A DNA stretch of 64,000 nt from Streptomyces reniochalinae (GTDB lineage Bacteria; Actinomycetota; Actinomycetes; Streptomycetales; Streptomycetaceae): contig NZ_QOIM01000042.1 in assembly GCF_003323735.1 (NCBI RefSeq), positions 372,001 through 436,000 on the forward strand. Direction: 5' to 3'. The notes under the pieces are model-generated. The model was not told the DNA's origin and ran no database searches. It worked only from the letters and a program-made list of their open reading frames with translations. The translations under genes and the position numbers were made by a program. Shown piece after piece: positions 32,880 through 48,190 of this stretch (position 1 is its first letter; every line of letters starts with the position of its first letter).

Positions 32880-33959
32880 ATGCGTTCAATCTGGAAAGGG
32901 ACCGTCTCCTTCGGGCTGGTCTCGATCCCGATCAAGGTGGTGTCCGCCACCGAGAACCACAGCGTCTCCTTCCACCAGGTGCACACGGACGACGGGGGCC
33001 GCATCCGCTACCGCAAGGTGTGCGAGCTGGACGAGCAGGAGGTCCCGCGCGAGGAGATCGGCCGCGGTTTCGAGACGGAGGAGGGGCGCACCATCCTCCT
33101 CACCGACGACGACATGGCGGCGCTCCCGCTGCCCACCGCCAAGACGGTGGAGATCCTCGGCTTCGTCCCCGCCGAGGACATCGACCCCATCCAGCTCGAC
33201 CGCTCGTACTTCCTGGCCGCGGACGGCCGGCGCGCCGACAAGCCGTACGTGCTGCTGCGTGAGGCCCTCAAGAGATCGGGCAAGGTCGCCGTCGCCAAGC
33301 TGGCGCTGCGTGCGCGCGAGAGCCTGGGGATGCTGCGGGTCTACGAGGACGCGCTCGCGCTGCACACCATGCTGTGGCCGGACGAGATCAGGTCGGCCAG
33401 TGGTGTGGCGCCCGAGGGGGAGGTCGCCGTACGGGACCAGGAGCTGGATCTGGCGGACACCCTGATGGAGACGCTGGGCGAGCTCGACTGGAGCGACCTG
33501 CGCGACGAGTACCGGGAGGCGCTCGAGGAACTCGTACGGGCCAAGGCCGAGGGGGTGGAGCCGCCGCCCGAGGAGTTGCGCCGCAGGACGGAGGCCGGCG
33601 GCGGGAAGCTGGTGGACCTGATGTCCGTGCTGGAGCGCAGCGTGCAGGAGGCCCGCGGCGGGCGGGACGCGGGGGAGGGCGGCGAGGCGACGGTGCACGA
33701 GCTGGCGGAGCGCCGTGCGGGGGAGCGCCCGGCCGAGAAGACGGCGTCCAAGAAGGCCGCGTCGAAGAAGACGGCCTCCCGGAAGCCGGCGGGCACGAAG
33801 AAGGCCGCCAAGAAGTCCACCGCGAAGCAGCCGGCCGCCAAGAGCACGAAGCAGTCAGGCGCCAAGAGCACGAAGAAGGCCGCCTCCAAGAGCACGAAGA
33901 CGGACGCCGCGAAGAAGACGGCGGCCAAGAAGGCCGCCCGTCCCCGCAAGACCGCCTGA
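32880..33959 (+). CDS. ku: Ku DNA end-binding protein
   Basis: Homodimeric ring that binds DNA ends and recruits LigD-type enzymes. The core Ku domain starts MRSIWKGTVSFGLVSIPIKVVSATENHSVSFHQVH and includes LLREALKRSGKVAVAKLALRARESLGMLRVY and LWPDEIR. The 359-residue length exceeds the usual 270-300 because of a roughly 80-residue C-terminal tail of repeated KK, KST and KKAA units, a basic extension that in other actinobacterial Ku proteins aids DNA binding. GAAGGGA precedes the ATG. It is divergent from the polymerase-domain gene, so the end-joining module is controlled from one 30-bp spacer. Confidence 0.95.
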   Translation: MRSIWKGTVSFGLVSIPIKVVSATENHSVSFHQVHTDDGGRIRYRKVCELDEQEVPREEIGRGFETEEGRTILLTDDDMAALPLPTAKTVEILGFVPAEDIDPIQLDRSYFLAADGRRADKPYVLLREALKRSGKVAVAKLALRARESLGMLRVYEDALALHTMLWPDEIRSASGVAPEGEVAVRDQELDLADTLMETLGELDWSDLRDEYREALEELVRAKAEGVEPPPEELRRRTEAGGGKLVDLMSVLERSVQEARGGRDAGEGGEATVHELAERRAGERPAEKTASKKAASKKTASRKPAGTKKAAKKSTAKQPAAKSTKQSGAKSTKKAASKSTKTDAAKKTAAKKAARPRKTA

Positions 33960-33986: not shown

Positions 33987-34754
33987 CTACCCGTGCCGCT
34001 CAGGTCTGCGGCCCTCGGGCAGGAACAGGGCCGAGTTCACGTAGCGGCGGTGCGGCGTGAGGGAGCGTCGCACCAGCCCGTGGTCGGCGACGTGCACGGT
34101 GCGCCGCTGGTGTGCCGCCAGGTCGAAGTCGGCCAGCCGCACCCAGGTGTCCGCGGGCAGCACCCAGCCGCTGTAGCCGAGCGAGGCCAGTTGTGACAGC
34201 ACCGGGGGGAGCGGCTGGATACGCGCTTCCAGTTCGACGAACAGCGCGGGCCTCTCCCGGGCCAGGGTCGACTCGGCGCCGTGCAGGACGGCTCGCTCAC
34301 CGCCGTCCACGTCGATCTTGACGAGGGAGACGTCGGTCAGCCCCAACGCGTCCAGCGGGAGGCAGGGAACGTCCAGCGAGACCTCGTGCACCTGGCGGCG
34401 CACCAGGGAGGACACGCCCCGGTCCCCGCGTCCGTCCGGTGGCAGCCACAGCGTCGCCCTGCCCGTGTGGTCGCTGGCCGCCGCCTGGAGGATCCGGGCG
34501 TTGGGCGGTGCCGTGGCTCGCAGGTGGCGGGCGAGGTGCGGGACGGGTTCGAGGGTGACGACGCGGTCGGCGCGGTGTGCCAGCCGGCGCGTCCACGGCC
34601 CGTACCAGCCGCCGACGTCGACCGCCGTACCCCCGCGCGGACAGTAGTCGGACAGGCGGCCCAGTTCGGGTTCGAAGCGCGGGTAGAGCCAGTCGGTGCC
34701 CGCGGTCAGCAGGCGCCGGGGCAGGTGGGGGCCGAGGCGGGAGGCGAGCGTCAT
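33987..34754 (-). CDS. FkbM-family SAM-dependent methyltransferase
   Basis: 255-residue methyltransferase. The SAM-binding glycine motif is TAVDVGGWYGPWTRRLA and the acidic motif VVTLEPVPHLARHL. The FkbM hallmark follows: LPLDALGLTDVSLVKIDVDGGERAVLHGAESTLARERPALFVELE. FkbM enzymes O-methylate sugars, polyketides or polysaccharide ends. It is the last gene of an eight-gene minus-strand operon, its ATG overlapping the stop of the Trm112-like gene (ATGA). In that setting a sugar or glycan is the most likely substrate. It converges closely (27 bp) on ku, without a clear terminator. Confidence 0.88.
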   Translation of the reverse strand: MTLASRLGPHLPRRLLTAGTDWLYPRFEPELGRLSDYCPRGGTAVDVGGWYGPWTRRLAHRADRVVTLEPVPHLARHLRATAPPNARILQAAASDHTGRATLWLPPDGRGDRGVSSLVRRQVHEVSLDVPCLPLDALGLTDVSLVKIDVDGGERAVLHGAESTLARERPALFVELEARIQPLPPVLSQLASLGYSGWVLPADTWVRLADFDLAAHQRRTVHVADHGLVRRSLTPHRRYVNSALFLPEGRRPERHG

Positions 34755-34987
34755 GGCGCCGGCTCCTTAGGGGCGGCCGGCGCCTCGATGAGCCGCTGGT
34801 GTTCCTCGTCGGCGACCTGTTCGCCGGAGGACGGAAGGAGCTGCGGTATGCCGTCGAGGACGGGGTAGCGGCGGCGCAGCCGGGGGTTGTAGAGCGTCTG
34901 GTCCGGCTCGATCAAAACGAGCGGCCCCTTGTCCAGGGGGCAGGCGAGGATCTTCAGGAGGGGGTCGTCGGCGGAGAGGCTGGGCAT
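34751..34987 (-). CDS. Trm112/UPF0434-like small protein
   Basis: 78 residues with KILACPLDKGPLVLIEPDQTLYNPRLRRRYPVLDGIPQLLP, the Trm112/YcaR fold that in eukaryotes activates methyltransferases. The second cysteine of the usual CPxC zinc knuckle is absent, so it may not bind zinc. It sits between the transporter gene (2 bp away) and the FkbM gene (4-bp overlap). Inference from fold and position: it may act as a partner or activator of one of the operon methyltransferases. Confidence 0.85.
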   Translation of the reverse strand: MPSLSADDPLLKILACPLDKGPLVLIEPDQTLYNPRLRRRYPVLDGIPQLLPSSGEQVADEEHQRLIEAPAAPKEPAP

Positions 34988-34989
34988 GG

Positions 34990-36009
34990 TCAGGGCCTTT
35001 CGGGTGCGTGGTGGGGGCTCTTGGGGCGGGTGGGCGGCAGCGTCGCCGACAGCGGGCGCCCGGCCGGTGGCAGCACCGTGTGTGCCGGGCCGTCCGCGGG
35101 AAGGACCTCTTCCGGCGCGCCGTCCGCCGTGGTGTCGGGCTCGTGGCGGGGCAGGGCCACCAGGACGCAGACGGCGAGGACGGCGCCGCCCAGCCGCAGG
35201 GCGAGCCGCAGCGGCTCGTCGGGCAGCGGCTCGGCGAACGCGACGGTGCCGCTGACCGTGGCGTAGAGGAAGTTGACGGTGGTGCACACGGGCACCACCA
35301 GGGAGGCGCGGCAGCGCTGGAGCGCGGTCTGCGACAGGACGAGCCCCGTCGTGCCGGTGAAGGCCAGCAGGTAGGGGTAAGGGGAGGTGACGAAGGACAC
35401 CACGGTGCCGCGCACGTCGCCGGGGTCGAGCAGCCCCGCGACGCCCTTGACGGCCAGCGAGCTGACCCCGTACAGGAAGCCGACCGCCACTCCGTACGGC
35501 ACGCCGGCGGTGGGCAGCCGGTGGCGCCGGCGGGAGCGGCGCTCGGCGCTCAGGAACAGCCCGATCCCCACGGCCAGGGACGGCAGACTCAGGGCCAGCA
35601 GCAGGGGCGCGGGTGCCAGGGCGCTGATCGTCTCGGAGCTGTCCCGCAGCGACGCGACGATCATCACGAGCGCGGCCACGATGGCCGCCATCCCCAGCCG
35701 TTCGCGTCCGCCGGACTTCTCGCCCAGGAACGCCGTGGACAGCAGGAGGAGCATCACGAGACCGGTCACGAACAGGCCCTGCGCCGCGATGAGGGGCAGC
35801 GTGCGGTAGACGGCGAGCTGCGCGGCGAAGCCCAGCAGCAGCGAGGCGGCGCCGACCAGCCACAGCGGGCTGCGCACCAGGTGCCGGACGAGCCGCGCCG
35901 GCTGTCCAGCGGACAGGGGAGGAAGGGCGGACAGCGCCCGCTTCTCGATGACGAAGCCCACGCTGAAGAGCAGGTTGGCCAGCAGCGCCGCCGCGACGCC
36001 GAGGACCAT
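34990..36009 (-). CDS. EamA/DMT-type multispanning transporter
   Basis: 339-residue inner-membrane protein with about nine or ten predicted helices, in two repeats as in drug/metabolite transporters. The N-terminus MVLGVAAALLANLLFSVGFVIEKRALSALPPL resembles the start of DMT permeases, and GLVMLLLLSTAFLGEKSGGRERLG mirrors the usual EK...E region. A 50-residue hydrophilic Pro-rich tail follows the last helix. ATG 36009 overlaps the stop of the upstream methyltransferase by one base. Some relatives move nucleotide sugars or lipid-linked intermediates, which would suit this operon. Confidence 0.82.
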   Translation of the reverse strand: MVLGVAAALLANLLFSVGFVIEKRALSALPPLSAGQPARLVRHLVRSPLWLVGAASLLLGFAAQLAVYRTLPLIAAQGLFVTGLVMLLLLSTAFLGEKSGGRERLGMAAIVAALVMIVASLRDSSETISALAPAPLLLALSLPSLAVGIGLFLSAERRSRRRHRLPTAGVPYGVAVGFLYGVSSLAVKGVAGLLDPGDVRGTVVSFVTSPYPYLLAFTGTTGLVLSQTALQRCRASLVVPVCTTVNFLYATVSGTVAFAEPLPDEPLRLALRLGGAVLAVCVLVALPRHEPDTTADGAPEEVLPADGPAHTVLPPAGRPLSATLPPTRPKSPHHAPERP

Positions 36010-36917
36010 CAGCTGCCCTTGCGCGGGGCGGGGTCGGCGCGTGGCCCGCGCTCCCGTCTGGGCACAGCGCGGGCGTGTACCAGCAGGATGGACGCCAGGG
36101 ACGGCGTGTGGCAGGCGGCGCGGTCCAGCGGGCGGAACGGGCGCGGTACGTCGTGGTAGGGCGCCCCGGTGATCCGTACGACGTGGAAGCCGGCGGCCGG
36201 CAGCAGGGAGCGCAACGCCCGCGCCGTGTACAGCCGCAGGTGTCCGACGACCTGGGATCCGGGCCTGCCGTGTATGCCGCGCAGCGACACCTCGGAGAAC
36301 ACCGGCTGGGTGCCGCACAGCAGCAGCAGGCGGTTGTACCAGGCGGCGAGGTTGGGGGTGGACAGCAGCAGATGGCCGCCGGGGCGCAGCACGCGATGCA
36401 GCTCCTCCAGGGCGGCGTCCGGGTCGACGAGGTGCTCGATCACCTCGGAGAAGAGCACGGCGTCAGCAGCGCCGGTCGCGAACGGCAGCCCGGGCGCGGA
36501 CAGTTCGCCGCGCACGGCACTCAGGTGTTCGGCGGCGCGGCGCAGCGCGTCCTGCGACCAGTCGACGCCGACGATCCGGTGCCGGGCCAGGGCGGTGGCC
36601 GCGGCGGCGGCAGCGGTGCCGTCACCGCACCCGATGTCCAGCACCGTCGAGGGGACGGGCCCCAGCGCGCGGGAGAGAACGGCCGCCTGGCGGAATGCCC
36701 GGTCGGGCCCCGAGGCGACCGGAGTGGCGGGGTCCTCGTACAGCTCCCGCAGACCGCCTTCAGCGCCGCCCTGCCAAGCGCCGCCCTGCCAAGCGCCGCC
36801 CTGCCAAGCGCCGTCCTGCCGCGTGTCGTCTTGCCAGGCGCCGTCTTGCCGCGCGCTGTCCCGCGCACCGCCGTGCGTCCCGCCGTGCCGGTGTCTGCGT
36901 ACTGTGCCGCCGCTCAT
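36009..36917 (-). CDS. class I SAM-dependent methyltransferase with repetitive N-terminus
   Basis: 302 residues. The first 55 are low complexity and include a pentapeptide repeat (GAWQG three times after QDGAWQDDTRQ). The catalytic domain follows: VLDIGCGDGTAAAAAATALARHRIVGVDWSQDALRRAA, FSEVIEHLVDPDAALEELHRVLRPGGHLLLSTPN, typical of Methyltransf_11/23. It ends in a Pro/Arg-rich tail. The acceptor is unknown, presumably a saccharide or lipid made by the operon. A 12-bp gap separates it from the condensation-type gene. The repeat is encoded by a 15-bp minisatellite. Confidence 0.88.
   Translation of the reverse strand: MSGGTVRRHRHGGTHGGARDSARQDGAWQDDTRQDGAWQGGAWQGGAWQGGAEGGLRELYEDPATPVASGPDRAFRQAAVLSRALGPVPSTVLDIGCGDGTAAAAAATALARHRIVGVDWSQDALRRAAEHLSAVRGELSAPGLPFATGAADAVLFSEVIEHLVDPDAALEELHRVLRPGGHLLLSTPNLAAWYNRLLLLCGTQPVFSEVSLRGIHGRPGSQVVGHLRLYTARALRSLLPAAGFHVVRITGAPYHDVPRPFRPLDRAACHTPSLASILLVHARAVPRRERGPRADPAPRKGS
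36763..36852. repeat. 15-bp minisatellite within a methyltransferase gene
   Basis: GCGCCGCCCTGCCAA occurs three times exactly (36763-36807), followed by three degenerate units to 36852. The unit is a multiple of three, so copy-number changes keep the frame and add or remove GAWQG-like pentapeptides. Confidence 0.8.
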
Positions 36918-36929
36918 CGCGGTCCTCCC

Positions 36930-38423
36930 TCAGCTCGGCTCGTCCACCGCGTACGCCGTCTCCGTCAGCGCGTCGGCGAACAGTTCCCCGAGGCGCCGGC
37001 CCGCCTCGTCGTCCAGCCGGGCGCGCGACCAGCGCAGAGCCAACTGGAGCCGCCCGCCCGTGGAGACGGTCGTGACCGAAAGACCGCGCGGGCGCTTCGC
37101 CGGTGCGGAGAACCACACGGCGCGGGCGCACCCGGCCTCGCCGAAGTCCAACGGGTAGGGCACGCGCCCGATGTTGGAGAGCAGCACGCTGGAGGCCCAC
37201 GGGGCGGCCGCCCTGCGCAGGGCACGGGTGCCGGCCGCGCGCAGCCCCACGGGCAGCAGGGGCGTGGTCAGCAGGTCACCGCTGAAGCCGAGTGGGGGCC
37301 GGTCGGCGGACTTCAGGGCGCGGGTGCGGGCCGCGGTGGTGCGCAGCAGCCGTTCGACCGCGCTCCGGTCGGCCGCCCCCGGCTCCGCCAGTGACGCGTA
37401 CAGCGCGCGTTCCCCGGGCCCGAAGCCGACCTCCACCAGCCGGGTGCCGTTGCCGATGGGCATCTCGGCGGTGCGGGGCCTGTCGTCAACGGGCATGGTG
37501 ACGCGGACGGGGCGCACCGGCGCCGCGTGCGCCCTGTTCCACCGGGCGACCATCAGCCAGGTGGCCACCAGCAACTGGTCGTTGACCGTGTAGGGGCCGG
37601 GCACCCCGGCCGCGCGGGGCGGCCGCGCCGGCACCGGCAGGTCGGCGATCAGCATGCCGTTCCCCGGGGCGCCGGGGTGGCGGGTGTGCGCCGCGACGCG
37701 GGCCGGCCGCTCCCGGGAGCGGGTGGATGCTTTTGTGCCGGCTCCCGTGTGCCCGGCAGCGAGGGGAGACCGTACGGGCGGCGGGGCGGGGGCGTTGTCC
37801 GCGCCGCCGTACAGGTGCGCCGCCGTGGCGACGACCCGCAGACAGGCCGGGCCGTCCAGCGCCGTGTGGTTGATCGTCACCAGCAGGACGCAGCCGTCCC
37901 CTTCCCCGGTGTTCTCGATCACCTCGGCGCGGAACGGCGGGGAGGCGTCCAGCGGAGGGCACTGAGCGAGCGCCCGCCGCCGCGCCTCCTGGAGCGTCCC
38001 GCCGGGGAAGACGACCGGGTCGCGATCGGGCTCGCCGGTGAGCACCCACGTGTACCGCGACCGCCACCAGCGCGACGGCGACTGGCGCACCAGGATGCGC
38101 GGATGCCGTCGCATCGCCTCACCGAACGCCTGCCGCAGCCGGTCGGGTTCGGGCACGGCGGGCAGGTGGATCTCCACGTGGACCGTTTCCGGCTCGTCGT
38201 CGTCCAGACAGTGCCGGGTGATCTCGTCGACGGTGGGGAAGGGGATGCGGTGCTCAGCGGGCGCCGGCGGGCGGGGCGGCCCGGCGGGCGGCAGGCCGGC
38301 ACCGCCGCCGGAGACGATCTCGGAGGCAGGCCGCTCCCCGGCGGCCCTCGGCGCCGAACCGCTCACCCTGCTGTGCGCGTGCGCTCCCGTAGTGCCGTCG
38401 GCGCCCGTGTGCGGTGCTGTCAT
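36930..38423 (-). CDS. condensation-fold acyltransferase (stand-alone, not NRPS)
   Basis: 497 residues of the CoA/carrier-dependent acyltransferase superfamily. A disordered N-terminus of about 55 residues leads to RIPFPTVDEITRHCLDDDEPETVHVEIHL. The active-site motif is INHTALDGPA, an xHxxxDG form of HHxxxDG, and the second half contains SSVLLSNIGRVPYPLDFG and LQLALRWSRARLDDEAGRRL, as in PapA or wax-ester-synthase-like enzymes. No adenylation or carrier domain is present. It probably transfers an acyl group to a sugar or lipid alcohol. ATG 38423 overlaps the stop of the AftD-like gene (ATGA), so the two are coupled. Confidence 0.82.
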   Translation of the reverse strand: MTAPHTGADGTTGAHAHSRVSGSAPRAAGERPASEIVSGGGAGLPPAGPPRPPAPAEHRIPFPTVDEITRHCLDDDEPETVHVEIHLPAVPEPDRLRQAFGEAMRRHPRILVRQSPSRWWRSRYTWVLTGEPDRDPVVFPGGTLQEARRRALAQCPPLDASPPFRAEVIENTGEGDGCVLLVTINHTALDGPACLRVVATAAHLYGGADNAPAPPPVRSPLAAGHTGAGTKASTRSRERPARVAAHTRHPGAPGNGMLIADLPVPARPPRAAGVPGPYTVNDQLLVATWLMVARWNRAHAAPVRPVRVTMPVDDRPRTAEMPIGNGTRLVEVGFGPGERALYASLAEPGAADRSAVERLLRTTAARTRALKSADRPPLGFSGDLLTTPLLPVGLRAAGTRALRRAAAPWASSVLLSNIGRVPYPLDFGEAGCARAVWFSAPAKRPRGLSVTTVSTGGRLQLALRWSRARLDDEAGRRLGELFADALTETAYAVDEPS

Positions 38424-41400
38424 GGGGCGGTCCCCTCCCCCTCGTGCGGGCCGTTCGTCGTGTGCGTCCCTTGGTGCGGTGCGGACGGAGGCTGCTGGGG
38501 TCCCCACGGCGCGGACGGCGCGGACGGTGGGGGCGGGGGCCCGAACACCGGAGTGCCCGGCTCCGCCTCGGGGGCGGTTTCGCGCTCCCGTACGGGCAGC
38601 GTCACCAGCGCGGCGGTCAGGGCGAGCAGCGCCAGTGCCTGCGCGGCGTGTCCGAAGGCACCCCGCCCCTCGGCGACGGCCGACCCCGCGCCGAGGGCCG
38701 CGATCACCCCGGCGCCCGCCATGGCGAAAAGCGCCACCGGCACGAGCACCCCCGGCCGAAGCCGGGCGAGCACCGCCAGCGCGGGCACGATCAGCGCGTA
38801 AGGACCCGCCGCGAGGGCGACCACGCAGGTGAGCGCGACCGTGCCCAGGATCGGGCCGGGTGCGGGCACGGCGCCGTCGTCGTCCTGCCCCACAGGCGTG
38901 CCGCGCCGCGGGGCCAGGAAGGCGAGGGCCAGCAGCGCGGCGATGCCCAGGCCGCCGGCCACGAGTCCGGCCGTGTACCAGGTGGCGGGCCGGTACTCCA
39001 GCTCGACGGTGCCCTTTTCGCCGGCCGGGACGAGGAAGCCCTGCTGCCAGCCGTCGAGCCGCAGTGGGCGCAGTTCCTCGCCGTCGAGGGTGGCTTTCCA
39101 GCCCTCGTTGGCGTTCTCGTGCGTGACGAGGTAGGAGGCGGGCCCGTCGGCGACCTCGACGGTACGCTCGTCGCCCGCCCAGTCGCGGACGGTGCTCTCG
39201 CGCTCGTCCGGAGCGCGAGAGACCTCGGGGTCCTGGACGGCGCTACCGGAGGAGGCACGGGGCTCGTCCTTCGCGCCCTGCGGCGCGGCGGCGCCCTTCT
39301 CGCCGGCTCCCAGAGTCACCTGGGTGAGGGCCAGGGGCCCGCTGTCGCCCGCCTCCACCGTGTGCCGGCCCGCGTCCATCCGCAGGCTGCCGTCCTCGGC
39401 TTCCCCGGCGCACAGTTCCACCTCGACGGGGCGCCGCAGGGTCAGGTCGCGCACGGTGCCGGACGCCTTGGTGGCGTGCAGGGTCCCGTCGACGGCGAGC
39501 ATCGGTCCCTTGCCGCAGGGCAGGTCGAACTTCTGGTCGGCGCTGGGCGCGGTCACGCGGTACTCGTCGAGCGCGGGCAGGTAGACCTCGTTGAGGCCGA
39601 CGGGCAGGGGGAGTTCGCGGTCGGCGAGCGGATTGTGGACGGTCACCTTCCTGGTCTTGGTGACGGTGAGCGTGAGCCGGTCCGTCTCGATGGGTTCGAA
39701 ACGGGCCTGGCCGTTCTTGTCGACACCTGCGCTCGCCGCGCCGTCCGGTGAGCTGATGCGGATCTCCTCGGCCGCGGCGGAGATGCCGCCCGCCGGTGCC
39801 AGGACGATCTCGTCGATCTCCTTCTTCTCGGGCCACGTGAGCCGGATCGTCGGCTTGTCCCCGGCGATCCACGCGGTGGACAGGTTGCCGTCCACCAGGT
39901 TGCGCGCGCTCAGCGAGCGGCCTGTCCTGGACGTCGAGTCGGCGGTGGCGGTGATCCGTTCCCGGGGGCCGGGGGCGGCCTCGTCCAGCAGCCGGTCGAG
40001 TGGGCCGCCCGCCACGGGCAGGGCGCGGGCGCGCACGTCGTAGTCGTGTCGGCGCTCCGTGGAGAACGTGCGGTGCAGCCCTGCCTCGGAGGCGGACGGT
40101 GCCAGGCCGCCGGGGTCGTCACCGCGGTGGAGGGAGAGCAGTTCGCTGTCCGCTCCACCGCCCCCGGCGTGCCCGCTGTCCCCGGTGTCGGCGGGGAGCC
40201 GCAGCAGCCGGGTCACCTGGACGTCCGGGATGCGGATCTCGGCGAATCCGGCCCCGGAGAGTCCGGGGCGTGGGGTCTGGGCCTCGGTGATGGTCAGCTT
40301 CAGCCACTTGGTGGCGCCCCGCGGCGCCTTGATCTTCTGGGGCTTGCCGGTGGGGCGCAGGAAGCTGGACGCGCTGCCGTGCGTGGTCTCCACGGTGACG
40401 CGGGTGGGCGCGGCGCGGGTGGCGTCGCCGGGCAGCGGCGTCACCTCGATCGAGGGGGGGATGTCGACACGGTCGTCGAACTCCGCCTTGATCCACTGTC
40501 CTTCGGGCTCTCCGGCGGTGCCCTCGGCCCACGCGGTGTCCGGGTTGCCGTCGAAGGCGCCCACGGGGTCGAACTGGGGCAGGTGGAAGAGCCAGTTGCC
40601 GCTGCTGGAGGCCGTCACCGAGGCCGCGCCGCGCAGGACGGACGTGGTCTGGTGCCGGACGCCGTCGGTCGGCAGGATCTGTTTGGGCTCCTCGCCGGGC
40701 TGCTGGAGGCTGTCGGGATGGTTCCGCTCGGTGGCCGTGTAGGTGTACGAGGTGTTGGTGTTGACCAGCCCGAAGCGGGTGTCGGCACGGCGCATCCCGT
40801 CGCCCCTGACCTGGAGCGCCGGCGCGCCGAGCCCCGGATGGTCGTCGCCGCGCAGCACGGCGGGCCGCCCCTTGAGGCGTGGATCGCCGGCGAGCGGCAG
40901 CAGCGACTCGGGTCCGCCGCTGACCTCGGCGGTGCCTGAGACGGGCCGCACGTCCGCGCGTTCGGGCCGCTCGACGCCGGTCGGCCGGTAGATCTCCACG
41001 GCCTGTCCGCGCGGGTAGAAGCCGGCCACCTGCACGGGCGTGCCCTCGGGTATGCGGCCCCCGGTCAGCGTCGGCCCGAACGCCTCGACCTTCTCGTAAC
41101 CCGACTCCTCAAGCGTGCGTTCGACGGTCTGCGGCGGTACGTAGCCGAGCTGGTCGGGGTCCAGATCACCCCGTACGACGACGTAGTAGAGGCCCGCGCG
41201 CGCCAGGAAGTCGGCGAGCCCCGGGACTTCACCGCCGCTCATGAGGGCCTGCTCGACCGCGTCGGTGGCCCTGCGGTTGCCGGGAGTGCCGAACGGGACG
41301 TAGTCGCGTTGGGCCCAGGGTGATTCGGCGAGCACGTCGAGGGGCTGGTCGATGGGGGAGCCCCAGGTGTGGAGGCCGTGCGCGGTCGCCGGGGTGACGT

Positions 41401-42784
41401 AGGCGCGGGTGTGCGGGGAGTGTTCCTTCAGCCATGCGGCGGTCTGCTGCCAGTGCGCGGGGAGCTTGTCGAACGCGCCGGGCTGGAGGACGTTCCCGCC
41501 CAGGTAGGGCAGGCACAGTCCCGGCAGTACCGCCAGCGCGGCCACCCACAGCAGCAGGGGGCGGCCCGGCAGGGCGCGGGTGCCGCGGGTGGAGACGGCC
41601 ACGGCGCTCAGGTGGGCGAGTGCGAAGGACAGCGCCAGGGCGAGCCCCGGCTGGAACTTGTAGATGTTGCGGAACGGACGCAGCCAGCCGTCCAGCCAGT
41701 CCTGCACGGTGCCGGAGAACGGCGCGCCCAGTGCGCCCCCGTATCCGGCCAGGACGATGCCGGTGACGGTCAGCACGCACAGCAGCAGCCAGCGCCGCTC
41801 GGGCAGGTCGCGCCGTGCCAGCCCCGCCAGTCCGAGCGCGGCGGCGAACGCGCCGCCCAGGATGGCGGGCCATCCGGCCGCCACCGTCCATCCCGCGGGC
41901 AGCCACGGGTCACCGAAGTGCAGGTAGGCCGTCCAGTTGCCGGCGCCGCGCAGCATCTCGGTGGCCGACATGGTGCCGGTGGTGGTCTCGGCGTTCTCCA
42001 CGTACGGCATGAAGTCCTCGCCGTACGCGCCGAGCAGCAGCAGCGGCACCCACCACCACAGGGTGGCCACCACGACGCCGGGCAGCCACCAGGCCAGCAG
42101 GGTGCGCCGCCGGCGGCCCGTACGGGTGACGACGTACAGCAGGGCGGGCAGCAGCGCGGCCAGGGTGGAGGCCGCGTTGACGCCGCCCATGAACGGGATC
42201 GCCAGGGCGGAGCGGGCCGCCGCCACCCGGGGTGCGGCCGTCAGCGAGGTGAGCGGCAGCAGCACCCACGGCAGCACGGCGCCCGGCAGTGCGGCGGCCG
42301 AGGTGGAGCCGACCACGATGGTGCAGGTGGGCCACAGCGCGTACACCACGGCGCCCAGCAGCCGGGTGGGCGGCGTGCCCACGCCGAGCCGCTCGGCGAG
42401 CCGCAGCACCCCCCAGAACGCCGCCGCGACGATCAGCGACATCCACAGCCGTTCGGCCAGCCAGGTCGGTATGTGCAACAGGTCGGTCAGCCCGTAGTAG
42501 GGCAGTGAGGGGAAGAGGTAGCCGGCGTACTGGTCGGCGATGCCGCCGAAGCCGCCTCGGGAGTGCCACAGCTGCCCCAGGTCCCCGAGGAACTTCCCCG
42601 GGTCCGCGGCCACGCCCAGCTTCGTCTCGAACGTCATCTTCCCCGGTGAGGGGGCGAGGAAGGCGATCAGCACGACCGCCCAGAAGCCGAACAGCCAGCG
42701 CCGGCCCCTGGGCGCTTCGTGGGGCGGTCCTGTCCGGGGTGCGGGGGCCGGGGCCTGGGGTGGCGCCTGGACGGTCGTGGTCAT
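38420..42784 (-). CDS. giant AftD/DUF3367-type membrane arabinofuranosyltransferase-like protein
   Basis: 1454 residues, like mycobacterial AftD. The N-terminal GT-C module of about eleven helices spans residues 30-500, with conserved early-loop acidic residues (PGKMTFETKLGVAADPGKFL, ADQYAGYLFP). A long periplasmic part contains two discoidin/carbohydrate-binding-like segments, around GAFDGNPDTAW (about 740) and NLVDGNLSTAW (about 963). Further helices lie near 1270-1400, and a Pro-rich cytoplasmic tail ends it. AftD adds alpha-1,3-arabinofuranose to arabinan in mycolate bacteria; Streptomyces lacks that wall, so donor and acceptor here are unknown. It is coupled at both ends by 4-base overlaps. 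Confidence 0.88.
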   Translation of the reverse strand: MTTTVQAPPQAPAPAPRTGPPHEAPRGRRWLFGFWAVVLIAFLAPSPGKMTFETKLGVAADPGKFLGDLGQLWHSRGGFGGIADQYAGYLFPSLPYYGLTDLLHIPTWLAERLWMSLIVAAAFWGVLRLAERLGVGTPPTRLLGAVVYALWPTCTIVVGSTSAAALPGAVLPWVLLPLTSLTAAPRVAAARSALAIPFMGGVNAASTLAALLPALLYVVTRTGRRRRTLLAWWLPGVVVATLWWWVPLLLLGAYGEDFMPYVENAETTTGTMSATEMLRGAGNWTAYLHFGDPWLPAGWTVAAGWPAILGGAFAAALGLAGLARRDLPERRWLLLCVLTVTGIVLAGYGGALGAPFSGTVQDWLDGWLRPFRNIYKFQPGLALALSFALAHLSAVAVSTRGTRALPGRPLLLWVAALAVLPGLCLPYLGGNVLQPGAFDKLPAHWQQTAAWLKEHSPHTRAYVTPATAHGLHTWGSPIDQPLDVLAESPWAQRDYVPFGTPGNRRATDAVEQALMSGGEVPGLADFLARAGLYYVVVRGDLDPDQLGYVPPQTVERTLEESGYEKVEAFGPTLTGGRIPEGTPVQVAGFYPRGQAVEIYRPTGVERPERADVRPVSGTAEVSGGPESLLPLAGDPRLKGRPAVLRGDDHPGLGAPALQVRGDGMRRADTRFGLVNTNTSYTYTATERNHPDSLQQPGEEPKQILPTDGVRHQTTSVLRGAASVTASSSGNWLFHLPQFDPVGAFDGNPDTAWAEGTAGEPEGQWIKAEFDDRVDIPPSIEVTPLPGDATRAAPTRVTVETTHGSASSFLRPTGKPQKIKAPRGATKWLKLTITEAQTPRPGLSGAGFAEIRIPDVQVTRLLRLPADTGDSGHAGGGGADSELLSLHRGDDPGGLAPSASEAGLHRTFSTERRHDYDVRARALPVAGGPLDRLLDEAAPGPRERITATADSTSRTGRSLSARNLVDGNLSTAWIAGDKPTIRLTWPEKKEIDEIVLAPAGGISAAAEEIRISSPDGAASAGVDKNGQARFEPIETDRLTLTVTKTRKVTVHNPLADRELPLPVGLNEVYLPALDEYRVTAPSADQKFDLPCGKGPMLAVDGTLHATKASGTVRDLTLRRPVEVELCAGEAEDGSLRMDAGRHTVEAGDSGPLALTQVTLGAGEKGAAAPQGAKDEPRASSGSAVQDPEVSRAPDERESTVRDWAGDERTVEVADGPASYLVTHENANEGWKATLDGEELRPLRLDGWQQGFLVPAGEKGTVELEYRPATWYTAGLVAGGLGIAALLALAFLAPRRGTPVGQDDDGAVPAPGPILGTVALTCVVALAAGPYALIVPALAVLARLRPGVLVPVALFAMAGAGVIAALGAGSAVAEGRGAFGHAAQALALLALTAALVTLPVRERETAPEAEPGTPVFGPPPPPSAPSAPWGPQQPPSAPHQGTHTTNGPHEGEGTAP

Positions 42785-43509
42785 GAGGGACACCGCCGGA
42801 GGATGAGGAGGAGGTTCCAGGTGGCCAGTTCGCGCAGCACGGGGACGCGGGTGACGGCGTGCGCGAGGAACGGCCAGTAGCGAGAGCGGGCAGCGACGAT
42901 CCGCACGTCGTCCCGGGCGCGCACGTGCCTGAGGGTGGGGCCGACGTGGACGGCGAACAGATTCTCGCCGAGCGTGTGCTTGGCGGCGTGCCCGGTGCGC
43001 CGCAGGTAGCGGGAGCGGGCGCGCTCGGCGCCGAACCAGTGCCAGGGGGAGGTCTCGTGACCGCCCCAGGGCGAGTACCAGTTGGTGAACGAGACGTAGA
43101 TCAGCCCGCCGGGACGGGTCACCCTGACCATTTCGGACAGGAACGTGACCGGGTCGGCCACGTGCTCGAGCACGTTGGAGGAGAAGCACACGTCCGCCGC
43201 GCCGTCGGCCAGCGGCAGCAGGTAGCCGTCGGCCAGCACAGCGCCCTCGGGGCTGCGCCCGCCCGCGTGCAGCTCACGCGGGTCGGGCTCGAACAAGAAG
43301 CAGTCGGCGCCCCGGCGGCGGAACTCCTCGGTGAAGTGCCCGCTGCCGCCGCCCACGTCCACCACGGTGCGGCCACCGAGCGGGACGTACCGCTCCACCT
43401 GGGCGACGGCGTCCCGTGCGAGCAGGCCGTAGCAGTGGGCCGGGTCCGACTGTTCGCGCAGGAAGGCACGGAAGAGGGCGAGGGAGCGTCTGAGGGAGGG
43501 GTCCCGCAC
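42781..43509 (-). CDS. class I SAM-dependent methyltransferase
   Basis: 242 residues. TVVDVGGGSGHFTEEFRRRGADCFLFEPDP binds SAM; FSSNVLEHVADPVTFLSEMVRVTRPGG is the post-motif region. FTNWYSPWGGHETSPWHWFG is a distinctive aromatic loop that may bind a sugar. It starts at GTG 43509 behind GGTGAGGAGG, 7 bp after the glycosyltransferase stop, and overlaps the AftD-like start. The long Arg/Pro-rich open frame upstream of 43509 is antisense noise. Substrate unknown; the operon implies a glycan or glycolipid. Confidence 0.87.
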   Translation of the reverse strand: MRDPSLRRSLALFRAFLREQSDPAHCYGLLARDAVAQVERYVPLGGRTVVDVGGGSGHFTEEFRRRGADCFLFEPDPRELHAGGRSPEGAVLADGYLLPLADGAADVCFSSNVLEHVADPVTFLSEMVRVTRPGGLIYVSFTNWYSPWGGHETSPWHWFGAERARSRYLRRTGHAAKHTLGENLFAVHVGPTLRHVRARDDVRIVAARSRYWPFLAHAVTRVPVLRELATWNLLLILRRCPS

Positions 43510-43516
43510 GGCCTCC

Positions 43517-44791
43517 TCACCGCCCCGTGGCGGCTGGATGGGGGGCCGTGTGAGCGGCGGGTTCGCCGGGGCCCGGCAGTGGTGCGGCCGGGGCGTGGGT
43601 GGCGGCCCCGGTGGCGCGCGCGTACGCCTCCGCCGCGACCGCCCGGAACCCGCTGACCGTGTGCGCCCAGCGGAAACCGTCGGCACGGCGCCGCGCCGCC
43701 TCCCCCAGCGCCAGGCGGCGCCGTTCCGAGAGCGCCAGCGCGCACCAGTGCGCGGCGAAGGTGCTCTCGCCGCGTGCCAGCAGCCCGGTCACCCCGTCCT
43801 CGACCGAGTCGCGCAGTCCGGGGATGTCGAAACCGATCGTGGGAGTGGACCGCGCTGCGGCCTCCATCACGACCAGGCCCCACCCCTCCACCAGCGAGGG
43901 GTGGAGCAGCAGCCAGGCCTGGCACAGCAGCCGGTGCTTGTCGGCTTCGCTCACGTGTCCCGCGAAGGTGACGCCCTCTCCCGCCCTCGCCTCCAGCGCG
44001 TGCCGCTCGGGGCCCTCGCCCACGATGACGAGCCGGCCCCCCGTGACCGGGCGCACCCGCTCCCACAGGCGCAGCAGCAGATCGACGCGCTTGTACTCGA
44101 CGAGCCGGCCCATCGCCAGGAACAGCGGCTCGGGTGAGGCGGGGTGCAGCGGTCCCGGATCCTCGACGCCGTTGTGCACGATCCTGATCTCGTCGGGGGG
44201 TACGCCGATGCGGGCCAGCGCCGTCGCGGTCGACCCCGAGACGGCGACCTTGAGGTTGCGCCGGTGGTTGCGGGCCAGCGACCAGTGTTCGAGCTGCCGG
44301 CCCAGGCGTGCGGCGGGTGCCGGGTAGCGCATGCCCCACAGGTCGGTGTGCACGTGGTTGACCAGGCACAGCGTCGGGCCGCTGTGCCACAGCGGAGCCA
44401 GGTACGGCATGCCGTTGCAGACCTCGACCAGCAGGTCGCAGTCGCCCACCTGCTGTGCGAAGGCGCGCCGGGCCCGCAGGAAGTGCGCCGCGTCGCCTCC
44501 CGCGGAGACGACGCGGTAGCCGCGGTGGGCGGCAGGCCCGCCGCACAGGAGGGTGACCTGGTGGCCGTGGTGGGTGAGCCCCTCGGCGATCCGGTCGATC
44601 AGCAACTCCGAGCCGCCGGCGGCCGGGTTGTCCAGATCGCGCCGTGCCAGGAAGACGATGCGGCGGGGTGCCCCCGAAGCGGTCTGCCGCACTCTGCGCG
44701 GGGCGGCCTCCCGTCCGCCCGCGGGGACGGACGGGAGGCCGGCGTGCGGGCCGTGCGGGGGAACCAGTGAGGCGCGTACGTGCTGGGGCAT
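43517..44791 (-). CDS. GT4-type glycosyltransferase, first gene of the envelope operon
   Basis: 424-residue GT-B enzyme. The N-terminal acceptor domain has RRIVFLARRDLDNPAAGGSELLIDRIAEGLTHHGHQVTLLCGG. The donor domain shows VHNGVEDPG, FLAMGRLVEYKRVDLLLRLW and LHPSLVEGWGLVVMEAAA with the EX7E pair that contacts the nucleotide sugar. Retaining transfer from UDP- or GDP-sugar is expected. A disordered tail rich in Ala and Pro follows. ATG 44791 has GGAGCACCC upstream. It heads eight genes packed with gaps of at most 12 bp, so the promoter must lie in the 476-bp region behind it. Confidence 0.9.
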   Translation of the reverse strand: MPQHVRASLVPPHGPHAGLPSVPAGGREAAPRRVRQTASGAPRRIVFLARRDLDNPAAGGSELLIDRIAEGLTHHGHQVTLLCGGPAAHRGYRVVSAGGDAAHFLRARRAFAQQVGDCDLLVEVCNGMPYLAPLWHSGPTLCLVNHVHTDLWGMRYPAPAARLGRQLEHWSLARNHRRNLKVAVSGSTATALARIGVPPDEIRIVHNGVEDPGPLHPASPEPLFLAMGRLVEYKRVDLLLRLWERVRPVTGGRLVIVGEGPERHALEARAGEGVTFAGHVSEADKHRLLCQAWLLLHPSLVEGWGLVVMEAAARSTPTIGFDIPGLRDSVEDGVTGLLARGESTFAAHWCALALSERRRLALGEAARRRADGFRWAHTVSGFRAVAAEAYARATGAATHAPAAPLPGPGEPAAHTAPHPAATGR

Positions 44792-45267
44792 GGGTGCTCC
44801 AACTCGTCTCGGGGGTGCGGGGGATACGCAACCGTGCGAGACGTTGCGAGTGAGCCTGCGGGACCTTGCGGGTGCGCTTGCGGGGCAGTGCGGGGACCCT
44901 CGCGGGTCGCTTGCGGTGCGGTGCGGTGCGGTGCGCTTGCTGACCTTGCTGAGCACGTGCGGAACACATGCGGAACCGTGTGGAACACCTGCAAAGGCGG
45001 TGCGGAGGTTGTGCGCAGGGGAGGTGCCGGAGGCGTGCGGGGCGGTGCACGTCGGAGGCTCAGTGTTCGCCGCAGCGTTCGCGGGTGGCTACTCACCGAA
45101 GTGACAATTTTCGCCCGGAGCCGGGCCGACGCTTCATCACTTCGCGCTCCGTCGCGTGTTCAACCACACGCGGCGGGCCCGACCAGGGCCGTCGGTGAGC
45201 GGACGTGGGCGACTGTGAGAGGTCCTGAGGGAACCTGAGGGGAAAGGCGCGGACGGGGCGGACCGCC
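44792..45267. other. 476-bp non-coding promoter region of the envelope operon, rich in short repeats
   Basis: No coding gene is evident. 44913-44932 is GCGGT repeated four times. 44958-44986 holds three direct repeats of TGYGGAAC at 44958, 44969 and 44979, spaced 11 and 10 bp, so on one face of the helix. The 45090-45150 stretch is less GC-rich (CAATTTTCG). TGCGG-type words recur throughout. The upstream DUF3068 gene ends at 45268, and I see only a CCTCAGG direct repeat near its end. Confidence 0.55.
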
Positions 45268-46248
45268 TCACGCCTCGTCCGGCTCGGGAGCGTGCCGCGC
45301 GCGCCCCCGGCTGCGGCGGCCCCTGACCACCAGCACCGCACCGACCGCCGCGCACACCGCCCCCGCCGAGGCGGCGGCGACCGGCGCCACACCGCCCACC
45401 AGCCGCAGCCGCGCGTTGTCGTCCTCGGCCAGCTCGACGGCCTCCCGCTGCGTCTTGTCGGTGAACTCCAGCTTGTCACTCTGCAGCAGCGTCACCTTGT
45501 CGGCCCGGCCGCCGGGTGCGCGCAGCGCGAGCTTCGGCCCTGTCGCCGCGTACAGGATGCGCCCTGTGCGCTGGTCGACGACGAACTCCAGGCCGGTGTT
45601 GGAGTACCACTGCTCGGCGTTGACCTGGCCGCGCTCCGGCTCGTCCACGAGCAGCCCGGGCACCTGCCGGGTGCCGGCCCTGGTGGGCTCGACCGTCCCC
45701 GCGAAGCGCAGCCCCTTGTGGCCGTGCACCGTGGCCTCGCCCTGGTAGCGCACCGGCACGGTGTCGCCCAGGCTGCTGTCCCACCAGGCGTAGTCGCGCT
45801 TCTCCACGTCGAACGGCCACTTCAGATACGCCTCTCCGGCGATGTCGTCGGGCCTGGAGGCGCAGCAGTCCACAGGACGGTTGGTCCTGCGGTCGGTCAC
45901 CAGCCGTTCGGTCGTCCACTGGAACGACTTGCGCGGGTCGTCCAGCTTGCGCGTCCTGGGGTTGTCGATGGTCTGCGAGACGTCCCACACGGCGCGCCCG
46001 CTCTTCTCGCTGGCCGCGACGTCGCCCAGCACGCGCCGCGTGACGGTGAGCTTCTGACCGCTTCTGGTCTTGAGTTCCTGCTGGTCGAAATACCTGCCCC
46101 GGCCTGTGAAGACGGAGGTGATGTCGACGTCGGTGGGGGTGCGTTCGGCCCGCGGCTCGACGTACCAGGCGAGCATCGGCGTCAGGACGAGCAGGAAGAC
46201 ACCGAGGCCCAGCACAACCAGGGCGAGGGGTGAGGCGGTACGGCGCAT
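45268..46248 (-). CDS. DUF3068 (PorA-like) membrane protein
   Basis: 326 residues. One helix near the N-terminus (LALVVLGLGVFLLVLTPMLAWYV) and one near the C-terminus (VAPVAAASAGAVCAAVGAVLVV) bracket a roughly 250-residue extracellular domain with TSVFTGRGRYFDQQ, YLKWPFDVEKRDYAWWD and QVNAEQWYSNTGLEFVVDQRTGRI, the DUF3068 pattern. The family is named for a porin-like annotation in mycolate bacteria, but its function is not known. It precedes the glycan operon on the same strand, separated by 476 bp. A promoter candidate lies at 46461-46490. Confidence 0.85.
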   Translation of the reverse strand: MRRTASPLALVVLGLGVFLLVLTPMLAWYVEPRAERTPTDVDITSVFTGRGRYFDQQELKTRSGQKLTVTRRVLGDVAASEKSGRAVWDVSQTIDNPRTRKLDDPRKSFQWTTERLVTDRRTNRPVDCCASRPDDIAGEAYLKWPFDVEKRDYAWWDSSLGDTVPVRYQGEATVHGHKGLRFAGTVEPTRAGTRQVPGLLVDEPERGQVNAEQWYSNTGLEFVVDQRTGRILYAATGPKLALRAPGGRADKVTLLQSDKLEFTDKTQREAVELAEDDNARLRLVGGVAPVAAASAGAVCAAVGAVLVVRGRRSRGRARHAPEPDEA

Positions 46249-46460
46249 GACGGGGCACTCCGAGGGTGTGTTGACCCGCGCCCCGAGGGTGGTTCCCCAC
46301 AGGGAGCGGGTACGGCGCTGAGGCGGGGGAAGTGCGCGTGCGGGAACCGGGCCGTCCGTCCAGGGCCGTCCAAGGACGGGTCGAGCGAAAGCCGTGCGGG
46401 AGAAGGCGAACGGGGCGGAGAGAACGAGGAGTTCGTGTGGACGGTCCGTATGGGCCGGAA

Positions 46461-46490
46461 ACCGTAGGGCGCACCTTGACACGGAGTCAA
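46461..46490 (-). promoter_or_regulatory. promoter candidate for the DUF3068 gene
   Basis: On the minus strand TTGACT (46490-46485) and TACGGT (46466-46461) are 18 bp apart. TTGAC-5-GTCAA (46476-46490) is an inverted repeat over the -35 region. Transcription would start near 46454, leaving a leader of about 200 bases. The rest of the 369-bp divergent gap shows nothing definite. Confidence 0.45.
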
Positions 46491-46617
46491 TGCCCACCGA
46501 CACTCAGCAACTCACAAGGGGTTGGCTCCTGGGGCGGAGCCGTCGCACCGGGCCGGCGTGTGCGCGCGTGACACACACGGCCGTCACGGCACCGACGAAG
46601 AGAGGTTCGCCTCCGCC

Positions 46618-46959
46618 ATGCACAGATCCCTCGCCGCCGCGCTCACCTGCGTACTCGCCGCCGGTCTCGCCGTCGGGGCCGGCGTCGGCATCGTCGCCGC
46701 GCTCGACGCCACCCCCGAGCAGCCCAACGTGCCGCTCGTGCACTTCCACTCGTCCCCCGACGAGATCCCCGGCCTCGGCGAGTCCGCGCTCCCCTCGCCG
46801 TCACCGTCCCCCCAAGACTCCGGCGGCACCGCGGGCCCCGGCGCCTCCTCGGACTCCGGCGACGCGGGGCGCACACCAGGCGGGCCGGACGACGGCTCGG
46901 GGGAGGGCGCCGCAGCCGGCGACGACCCGTCACCCTCCTCCGCCGCTCCCAGGGACTGA
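46618..46959 (+). CDS. small secreted or membrane-anchored Ser/Pro-rich protein
   Basis: 113 residues: an N-terminal hydrophobic segment (LAAALTCVLAAGLAVGAGVGIVAAL) that acts as signal or anchor, followed by a short conserved-looking stretch (TPEQPNVPLVHFHSSPDEIPGLGESALP) and a disordered Ser/Pro/Gly/Asp tail. No enzymatic motif. It lies 4 bp before the PucR-type regulator gene and should be cotranscribed with it. GAGAGG lies about 15 bases before the ATG, a rather long spacing. Confidence 0.7.
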   Translation: MHRSLAAALTCVLAAGLAVGAGVGIVAALDATPEQPNVPLVHFHSSPDEIPGLGESALPSPSPSPQDSGGTAGPGASSDSGDAGRTPGGPDDGSGEGAAAGDDPSPSSAAPRD

Positions 46960-46963
46960 CACC

Positions 46964-48190
46964 GTGCCGACCGCACCCGTCCGCTCCGCGTGGCAGGACG
47001 TCCCACCGCTGCGCGTGCGGCAGTTCGCGAGCCGGGCCATGGGCGAGGTGCCGGTGCTCGCCCAGGACATCCTCTCCGCCATCCGCCGCGAGTACCCCGC
47101 GCTGCCCCTGATGCTGGACGAGACGGGCGAGCCCATGGCCCTCGTCGGCATCCGGCGGGCACTGGAGCACTTCGTGGAGAACCTGGCCACGGGGCTGGAG
47201 GCACCGCACGTGCCGCCGCAGGTCTTCCAGGAGTTCGGCCGCGGCGAGGTGCTTCAAGGGCGCAGCCTCGACTCCCTCCAGGCGATCTACCGGCTGGGCA
47301 TCCGGCTGGCCTGGCGCCGGCTCGCCGAGATCGGCACCCAGATGGAGATTCCGCCGCCCGCGATGTACGAGCTGGCCGAATCCGGGTTCCAGTACCTCGA
47401 CGGGCTGGTCGCCGAGTCGGTACGCGGCTACGCCGAGGCAGCGGCCCGGCAGGCGGGGGAGCGGCTGCGCCTCCAGCGCAGACTGCTCGACCTGCTGCTG
47501 TCCGAGCACCCGCCGCGCGGCGGCGCCGACCGCGCCGACCTGCTCGCCGACCGCGCCGCCCGCATCGGCTGGAGGATGCCCGCCACCGTCGCCGTCGCCG
47601 TCCTGGTGCGCCCGGCCCGCTCCGCCGTGCCCCCCGCCGTGGGTGACGAGGTGCTGCTCGACATGGAGTGCGAGCAGCCCCGCATGGTGGTGCCGGAACC
47701 GGAGGCGCCCGGCAGGCCGGAGCTGCTGCGCCGCTCGACCGCGGGATGGTCGGGCGCGGTGGGGCCTCCGGTGCCGCTGGCCGACGCCGCCAAGTCGCTG
47801 CGCTGGGCCGTCACCGCCGTCGCCCTCATCGAGCGCGGACTGCTGCCCGGTGGGGCGCTGCTGCACTGCACCGAGCACACGGAGGCCCTGGTGCTGCTGC
47901 CGCCCGAGGAACTGATCGCAGGGCTGGGCCGGCGCCGGCTGGCTCCGCTGGAGACCTGCGGCCCCGCCCACAGCCGCAGGCTGGCCGAGACGCTGCTGGC
48001 CTGGCTGGAGACGCGCGGCGGCGCCCCGGAGGTCGCCGCCCGCCTCGGGGTGCACCCGCAGACGGTCCGCTACCGGCTGCGGCAGATCCGCGAACTGTGG
48101 GGCGAGGACATCGACGACCCCGACAGCCGCTTCGAGCTCGAACTCGTGCTCCGTTCGATGCGGCTGCGCGGCGAACTGGGGGCGCCCTGA
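46964..48190 (+). CDS. PucR/CdaR-type transcription regulator
   Basis: 408 residues. The N-terminal RsbT-co-antagonist/GGDEF-like region (EVPVLAQDILSAIRREYP ... GRGEVLQGRSLDSLQAIYRLGIRLAWRRLAEIG) is followed by a variable middle and a C-terminal PucR helix-turn-helix (RRLAETLLAWLETRGGAPEVAARLGVHPQTVRYRLRQIRELWG). Layout and length match the many Streptomyces proteins of this type. The GTG at 46964 follows the small secreted-protein stop by 4 bp. Its target and signal are unknown. It resembles FasR in architecture but sits away from the fab genes. Confidence 0.87.
   Translation: MPTAPVRSAWQDVPPLRVRQFASRAMGEVPVLAQDILSAIRREYPALPLMLDETGEPMALVGIRRALEHFVENLATGLEAPHVPPQVFQEFGRGEVLQGRSLDSLQAIYRLGIRLAWRRLAEIGTQMEIPPPAMYELAESGFQYLDGLVAESVRGYAEAAARQAGERLRLQRRLLDLLLSEHPPRGGADRADLLADRAARIGWRMPATVAVAVLVRPARSAVPPAVGDEVLLDMECEQPRMVVPEPEAPGRPELLRRSTAGWSGAVGPPVPLADAAKSLRWAVTAVALIERGLLPGGALLHCTEHTEALVLLPPEELIAGLGRRRLAPLETCGPAHSRRLAETLLAWLETRGGAPEVAARLGVHPQTVRYRLRQIRELWGEDIDDPDSRFELELVLRSMRLRGELGAP

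Follow-up and report, generated by a model that had tools for sequence, protein, structure and literature searches.

An operon of Streptomyces reniochalinae, lying in a 64,000-nucleotide stretch of DNA (the window; contig positions 372001-436000 of a 7.69 Mb genome in 70 contigs), groups an AftD-family glycosyltransferase with a stand-alone acyltransferase, several methyltransferases and a DUF3068 protein. We consider it rather probable, at about 0.6, that this locus represents, in Streptomyces, an old actinobacterial module for envelope glycolipids. The core of the module is a GT4 glycosyltransferase, an MtrP-type methyltransferase, an AftD-family GT-C glycosyltransferase and PgfA/LmcA, and the tmaT locus of mycobacteria and corynebacteria is another version of it. 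This reading is based on homology, gene order, co-occurrence and protein folds. The product is most likely an envelope glycolipid that the encoded proteins put together, acylate, methylate, export and finish, with a chemistry deduced from the genes. The genes of the unit are as follows (window coordinates).

46394..48190, plus strand: PucR-type regulator, transcribed divergently, with a C-terminal HTH_30 (PF13556, 69.9 bits); start codon uncertain
45268..46248, minus strand: PgfA/LmcA (DUF3068, Pfam name 'PorA'), predicted membrane-anchored barrel, likely lipid-binding (NF053601, 293.6 bits; PF11271, 235.7 bits)
43517..44791, minus strand: GT4 glycosyltransferase (Glycos_transf_1, 93.7 bits)
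42781..43509, minus strand: MT1, MtrP-type class I methyltransferase (Methyltransf_11, 66 bits)
38420..42784, minus strand: AftD-family GT-C glycosyltransferase with carbohydrate-binding modules, 1454 amino acids (PF11847, 704 bits)
36930..38423, minus strand: stand-alone condensation-superfamily acyltransferase, 497 amino acids, assigned from the fold of its AlphaFold model
36009..36917, minus strand: MT2, class I methyltransferase (Methyltransf_23, 83.7 bits)
34990..36009, minus strand: DMT-superfamily multi-pass membrane protein (NIPA/EamA-like), candidate flippase (PF05653, 36.9 bits)
34751..34987, minus strand: Trm112-like small protein, candidate methyltransferase partner (PF03966, 42.8 bits)
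33987..34754, minus strand: FkbM-family methyltransferase (PF05050, 46.6 bits; TIGR01444, 69 bits)

The unit is conserved across the genus. In a sample of 199 congeneric genomes, 82 carry AftD as defined by PF11847, about four in ten of Streptomyces species. A profile built from 55 condensation proteins (match threshold E 1e-10 or better) found the condensation gene in 81 of the 82 carriers and in none of the 117 non-carriers; the sole carrier without a match, G050, is 82% complete and lies in 1770 contigs. Two sets of loci were then compared by gene content. The loci of 39 further carriers, chosen mostly for enough contig on both sides, all gave tblastn matches to MT1, AftD, the condensation gene, MT2 and Trm112 (MT1 of L048 being a fragment); GT4 was found in 38 (L048 ends at a contig edge), the DMT gene in 37, PgfA in 36 and FkbM in 31. 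Among the best 80 of 571 relatives, 57 loci had enough flank. PgfA, MT1, AftD, the condensation gene and MT2 were present in all 57, GT4 and Trm112 in 56 each, the DMT gene in 55 and FkbM, the least conserved member in both sets, in 46. Gene order was collinear in 56 of the 57. The exception, L188 from Streptacidiphilus, has a GT4 on the opposite strand, a different gene order and several matches that are only distant or partial. S. scabiei, S. griseus, S. rimosus, S. noursei and S. lincolnensis are carriers among these best 80 relatives. A PucR-type homologue divergent from PgfA was found by tblastn in 54 of the 57 and 33 of the 39 loci. An earlier note on this DNA, made from the letters, had described eight minus-strand genes with a DUF3068 gene in front. 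All nine are present and, as the survey shows, co-occur, and we add the divergent PucR-type gene that it missed, which makes a conserved unit of ten.

The eight minus-strand genes run from 44791 to 33987 and are joined by overlaps or by gaps of at most 12 base pairs (bp); the PgfA gene is 476 bp upstream of GT4. The gap between GT4 and MT1 is 7 bp if MT1 starts at the GTG at 43509, a start judged likely from the sequence; a longer in-frame start at 43686 is possible and would overlap GT4. Both ends of AftD overlap their neighbours (MT1 and the condensation gene) by 4 bases. The condensation gene and MT2 are separated by 12 bp, MT2 and the DMT gene overlap by 1, the DMT gene and Trm112 are 2 bp apart, and Trm112 and FkbM overlap by 4. 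Four-base overlaps recur at AftD/condensation in 26 of the 39 loci, at condensation/MT2 in 28 of 39 and at Trm112/FkbM in 28 of 31; starts were chosen mechanically and these counts are rough, because some open reading frame starts and gaps are wrong (e.g. the GT4 in L049, 22 amino acids). A promoter scan of the locus found none, with 0.2 expected. The DMT gene had been called EamA-type in the earlier note; it belongs to the DMT superfamily, but its top Pfam score is to PF05653 (Mg_trans_NIPA; cut-off 26.2 bits) and EamA falls below its cut-off.

The core genes were compared with the tmaT/mtrP/mmpA/pgfA(lmcA) locus (NCgl2759-2765; Rv0224c-Rv0228), whose mtrP gene we take to be Rv0224c. In a class-wide sample of genomes, the AftD of one member of family f4 (L072) scores 1894 bits against the structure 6wbx, which marks this family as mycobacterial. 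Three f4 genomes carry PgfA, all three have a GT4 beside a methyltransferase, and the two that were checked by Pfam have a TmaT-like acyltransferase-3. In these three mycobacterial genomes, the methyltransferase at the MtrP position (presumably MtrP/Rv0224c, judged by position) and the end of AftD are 7.5 to 11 kb apart. With one of these (L104) as query, MT1 was the best match in the whole Streptomyces genome at 203 bits, the next scoring 34. Conversely, MT1 found the MtrP-position genes as best matches in the three mycobacterial genomes, at 214, 202 and 177 bits (next 47, 40 and 32), with 43-50% identity. Because of these reciprocal best hits, we assign MT1 to the MtrP type. The mycobacterial GT4 next to MtrP found the operon GT4 as the best match in the whole genome (136 bits vs. 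55 for the next), a comparison made in one direction only; we take the operon enzyme to be Rv0225-type from its position in the mycobacterial loci. Together, the identity of PgfA, the reciprocal best hits of MtrP and the full-length match of AftD lead us to regard the GT4-MtrP-AftD-PgfA core as the counterpart of the tmaT locus.

The same genes recur beside AftD in other families. We collected 20 such loci, in stretches of up to 20 kb, from 19 genomes, 18 genera and 9 families; four of the loci are from f4. MT1 homologues (43-54% identity) and PgfA were each found by tblastn in 12 of the 20, and a TmaT-like acyltransferase in 13 (four of these 13 supplied the queries). GT4 matches had 31-41% identity and may include paralogues, because GT4 is a large family. 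The unit described in the earlier note is thus no orphan pairing: its GT4, MtrP-type methyltransferase, AftD and PgfA form a recurrent core that matches the tmaT locus, a match which that note missed. Both versions group a membrane protein that is AftD-family or AftD-like with PgfA, GT4 and the MtrP-type methyltransferase. The Streptomyces operon differs in having AftD itself inside it, no separate MmpA and no TmaT-like gene that we could find, and in adding the condensation-type acyltransferase, a second methyltransferase, the DMT protein, the Trm112-like protein and FkbM. No TmaT-like gene was found in the 39 Streptomyces loci (tblastn, E 1e-5); the window was not in that search, and its genes are all otherwise assigned. 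A further difference is that, to our knowledge, Streptomyces have neither mycolates nor an arabinogalactan-mycolate wall.

The 1454-residue protein, which the earlier note had called AftD-like, matches its mycobacterial relatives over its whole length. PF11847, the GT-C domain, exceeds its cut-off of 26 bits by far, and CBM_AftD scores 47.3 bits (cut-off 27). Residues 26-1391 align to 6wbx with a phmmer E of 6.5e-129, and 6w98 is also a full-length match; we take both to be structures of mycobacterial AftD. The architecture of GT-C domain and carbohydrate-binding modules is the same, with about 30-33% identity to the AftD of the four mycobacterial-family loci. In the first outer loop, E53 precedes an invariant TK. 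T54 and K55 are kept in 60 of 60 rows, and the acidic position, which we take to be the catalytic one, is D or E throughout the 26 rows shown. The motif is ETK in our strain, where the mycobacterial enzyme has Asp; it is DTK in the 20 rows of other families, and either form occurs in congeneric rows. The GT-C domain and the acidic residue that the AftD assignment calls for are therefore both in place. The family f18 genomes represented by L088, L089 and L090 have two to three AftD-family matches each, and in L088 and L090 AftD has a distant condensation-type gene in its neighbourhood.

The DUF3068 protein is PgfA/LmcA by profile and by modelled fold. It exceeds the NF053601 equivalog cut-off (160 bits) and matches PF11271. 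A phmmer comparison with LmcA gave E 0.1 only, and identity was settled by profile and fold. Its AlphaFold model (confidence score pLDDT 86) has predicted helices at 7-34 and 264-312 and matches M. smegmatis LmcA (7n3v/7shw) with template-modelling (TM) scores of 0.78-0.82 on target length, far above other structures, at 18-19% sequence identity. The next best structures are LIMP-2 and CD36, a likeness that PMC8972800 describes for LmcA itself. By analogy, the protein may have a role in lipid trafficking. The operon protein has a paralogue in the same genome: in 11 of 11 chosen Streptomyces genomes, the interval between polA and rpsA holds another PgfA gene that stands alone (L032:9388-10761; L190-L199). 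On a tree, the operon PgfAs group apart from the stand-alone ones, with strong support for both groups (11 rows each). RpsA was found in 8 of the 20 other-family loci, that is, the AftD cluster itself is near rpsA there. The position beside rpsA may simply be the older one and the Streptomyces operon a relocated or acquired version, though the tree does not prove which.

The condensation-type gene had been named as such in the earlier note, and the modelled fold upholds this even though the protein has no Pfam match, the Pfam Condensation family included. TIGR02946 (WS/DGAT) scores 34.6 bits, far under its cut-off of 310, and a sequence search against solved structures gave no match up to E 5. 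The AlphaFold model (pLDDT 83, predicted TM score 0.83) matches 8s6l with a VIA Z of 30.1 over 381 residues, the WS/DGAT 6chj with 24.3 over 342 and PapA5 1q9j with 21.5 over 328, at 10-20% identity to these structures. It is thus, as far as the predicted fold goes, a condensation-superfamily acyltransferase, sharing its fold with PapA5, WS/DGAT, stand-alone condensation enzymes and natural-product enzymes such as SgcC5 and AzeD. Where those enzymes have HHxxxDG, the operon protein has NHTALDG. The second His (H186) and Asp (D190) are invariant in 55 of 55 rows, and the first His is Asn in our strain. More distant AftD neighbours in L088 and L188 do pass the Pfam Condensation cut-off.

The main guide to the function of the operon is, by analogy, its relatives in C. 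glutamicum. According to PMC8698533, when TmaT, MtrP or MmpA is lost in that species, trehalose corynomycolate is no longer acetylated and is transported more slowly, and loss of the PgfA orthologue impairs lipomannan and lipoarabinomannan (LM/LAM). In M. smegmatis, PgfA has been placed in one pathway with MmpL3 (PMC9678360), and PMC8972800 terms the locus conserved in Corynebacterineae.

From these analogies, the operon would work as follows. The GT4 enzyme would add a sugar to a lipid acceptor in the cytoplasm, and MT1, MT2 and FkbM, with the Trm112-like protein as a putative partner, may O-methylate the glycolipid. The condensation-type enzyme would acylate it from a group bound to coenzyme A or acyl carrier protein, with H186 as the base, and so take the role of TmaT acylation in mycolate bacteria. 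The DMT protein may flip the product to the outer face, where AftD, drawing on a polyprenyl-phosphate donor, would add arabinose in strains with DprE1/DprE2 and possibly another sugar in those without, while its carbohydrate-binding modules would hold the product. PgfA would carry the acylated product off the membrane, and the PucR-type protein probably controls the operon. The order of steps is a guess, and we infer the acceptor, sugars, acyl chain, flippase role and Trm112 partnership. In general terms this agrees with the earlier note, which had the operon make, acylate, methylate and export an envelope glycoconjugate; the product and each chemical step are still what we infer.

Several points weigh against this interpretation. 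The product, the substrate and the activities are predicted from the genes, and the functions of MtrP and PgfA are known only from mycolate-bearing bacteria. That the condensation enzyme has taken the place of TmaT is read from presence and absence, and two loci among the best 80 of 571 relatives (L130 and L139) have weak TmaT-like matches, at 27-28% identity, several kb beyond the operon. The operon PgfA belongs to a lineage separate from the rpsA-linked Streptomyces PgfA and may for that reason bind another ligand; moreover, PgfA is missing beside GT4 in 2 of 38 untruncated loci. The tmaT locus includes MmpA, yet no separate gene for it was seen between the genes of the window. According to PMC8698533, homologues of MmpA/Rv0226c are confined to corynebacteria and mycobacteria, save for a partial likeness to AftD given there as data not shown. 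We rejected MmpA as a clear AftD homologue, since hhalign gave E 0.009 with a probability of 4.5%, a weak likeness. AftD may nevertheless stand in for MmpA.

The arabinose question bears on the nearest rival, a narrower form of the earlier note's reading, in which the operon would use decaprenyl-phospho-arabinose, as mycobacterial AftD does, to build an arabinosylated glycoconjugate. By profile matches the genome encodes a complete donor pathway: decaprenyl-phosphate phosphoribosyltransferase (DPPR synthase; 392 bits, cut-off 207), DprE1 (628, cut-off 500) and DprE2 (364, cut-off 250). DPPR synthase is divergent from DprE1-DprE2, and the cluster that the three form adjoins a TarF-like teichoic-acid gene (L101:8208-12188, G000:C10), a position that suggests another use, and Emb (PF04602) was not found in this genome. 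We called DprE1 at 470 bits or more (four calls are just under the curated 500), with one split gene counted as present and fragments in G004, G076, G147 and G185 as absent. By this count 104 of the 199 congeners have DprE1: 56 with AftD, 48 without it, leaving 26 with AftD alone and 69 with neither. DprE1 is thus commoner in AftD carriers (56/82) than in others (48/117; Fisher p 1.7e-4, kinship uncorrected). A tree of 54 AftD rows shows 11 changes of DprE1 state, and these, with the 26 of 82 carriers that lack the gene, indicate that the operon does not need DprE1. The donor is available in this strain, to judge from its genes, yet the operon does not require it. Since AftD-family proteins also occur in 139 of the 296 genomes and 48 of the 114 genera of the class sample, membership in the AftD family does not establish arabinose, although the earlier note spoke of an arabinosyltransferase, and the donor in Streptomyces is not obligatorily arabinose. 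PMC6194230 restricts arabinogalactan genes to Corynebacteriales and some related orders, but has no direct bearing on the spread of AftD because its main text does not name it. We also considered a donor switch, in which the loop Asp/Glu of AftD would track DprE1: rows with DprE1 comprised 32 with D and 5 with E, and rows lacking it 6 with D and 11 with E. It was dropped; the residue changes only 3 times on the tree, giving 3 independent pairs, from which nothing can be concluded. On balance, an arabinosylated product of this kind is possible but doubtful.

Decoration of a known Streptomyces polymer, a lipoteichoic or teichulosonic acid, instead of a new glycolipid appears unlikely. A glucosamine-bearing lipoteichoic acid has been described in Streptomyces (PMC3196553), and the carbohydrate-binding modules of AftD would suit a polymer. 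The acyltransferase, GT4 and PgfA suggest a lipid-linked product, and occurrence in just 82 of 199 congeners fits poorly with teichoic acids, which are widespread in Streptomyces. That same patchiness, the dedicated divergent regulator and the fold common to SgcC5 and AzeD would be expected if the cluster made a specialised metabolite, namely an acylated glycolipid that is secreted. We find this slightly less likely again, as the Pfam matches of the unit include no carrier-protein, polyketide or peptide synthetase gene and the core recurs beside AftD in other families, mycobacteria included. Although FkbM was not found in 11 of the 57 loci, chance neighbourhood without joint function can be practically dismissed; it is refuted by the co-occurrence of 81/82 vs. 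0/117, the fixed order and the frequent 4-base overlaps. The envelope-glycolipid module with its tmaT-type core thus remains our preferred reading.

PgfA, MtrP and AftD have so far been studied as parts of the mycolate envelope, and we found no paper on this operon in Streptomyces in the open-licence literature. We suggest tentatively, at somewhat less than even odds, that the trehalose-mycolate transport and lipoglycan machinery of mycobacteria goes back to a system for assembling and moving glycolipids that predates mycolic acids, and that Streptomyces and other actinobacteria would still use this system, with different acyltransferases, for an envelope glycolipid not yet isolated. The core of the tmaT locus as a Streptomyces operon offers a genetically easy, non-mycolate host for testing its basic function, and makes the role of PgfA, MtrP and AftD before, or without, mycolic acids a testable question. 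It also cautions against reading arabinan into an 'AftD' annotation.

Two genomes of the congener sample (G104 and G049) hold two AftD copies each, with a condensation gene a few kb from each copy; locus L059 is the second copy of G104. The Ku gene that adjoins the operon was rejected as a part of the unit, being its neighbour in 3 of the 57 loci only. A 24-bp tandem repeat lies in the C-terminal tail of this Ku gene (window 33823-33915), and a near-perfect 15-bp tandem repeat of 3.9 copies with 97% matches lies in the N-terminal coding part of MT2 (window 36762-36820).

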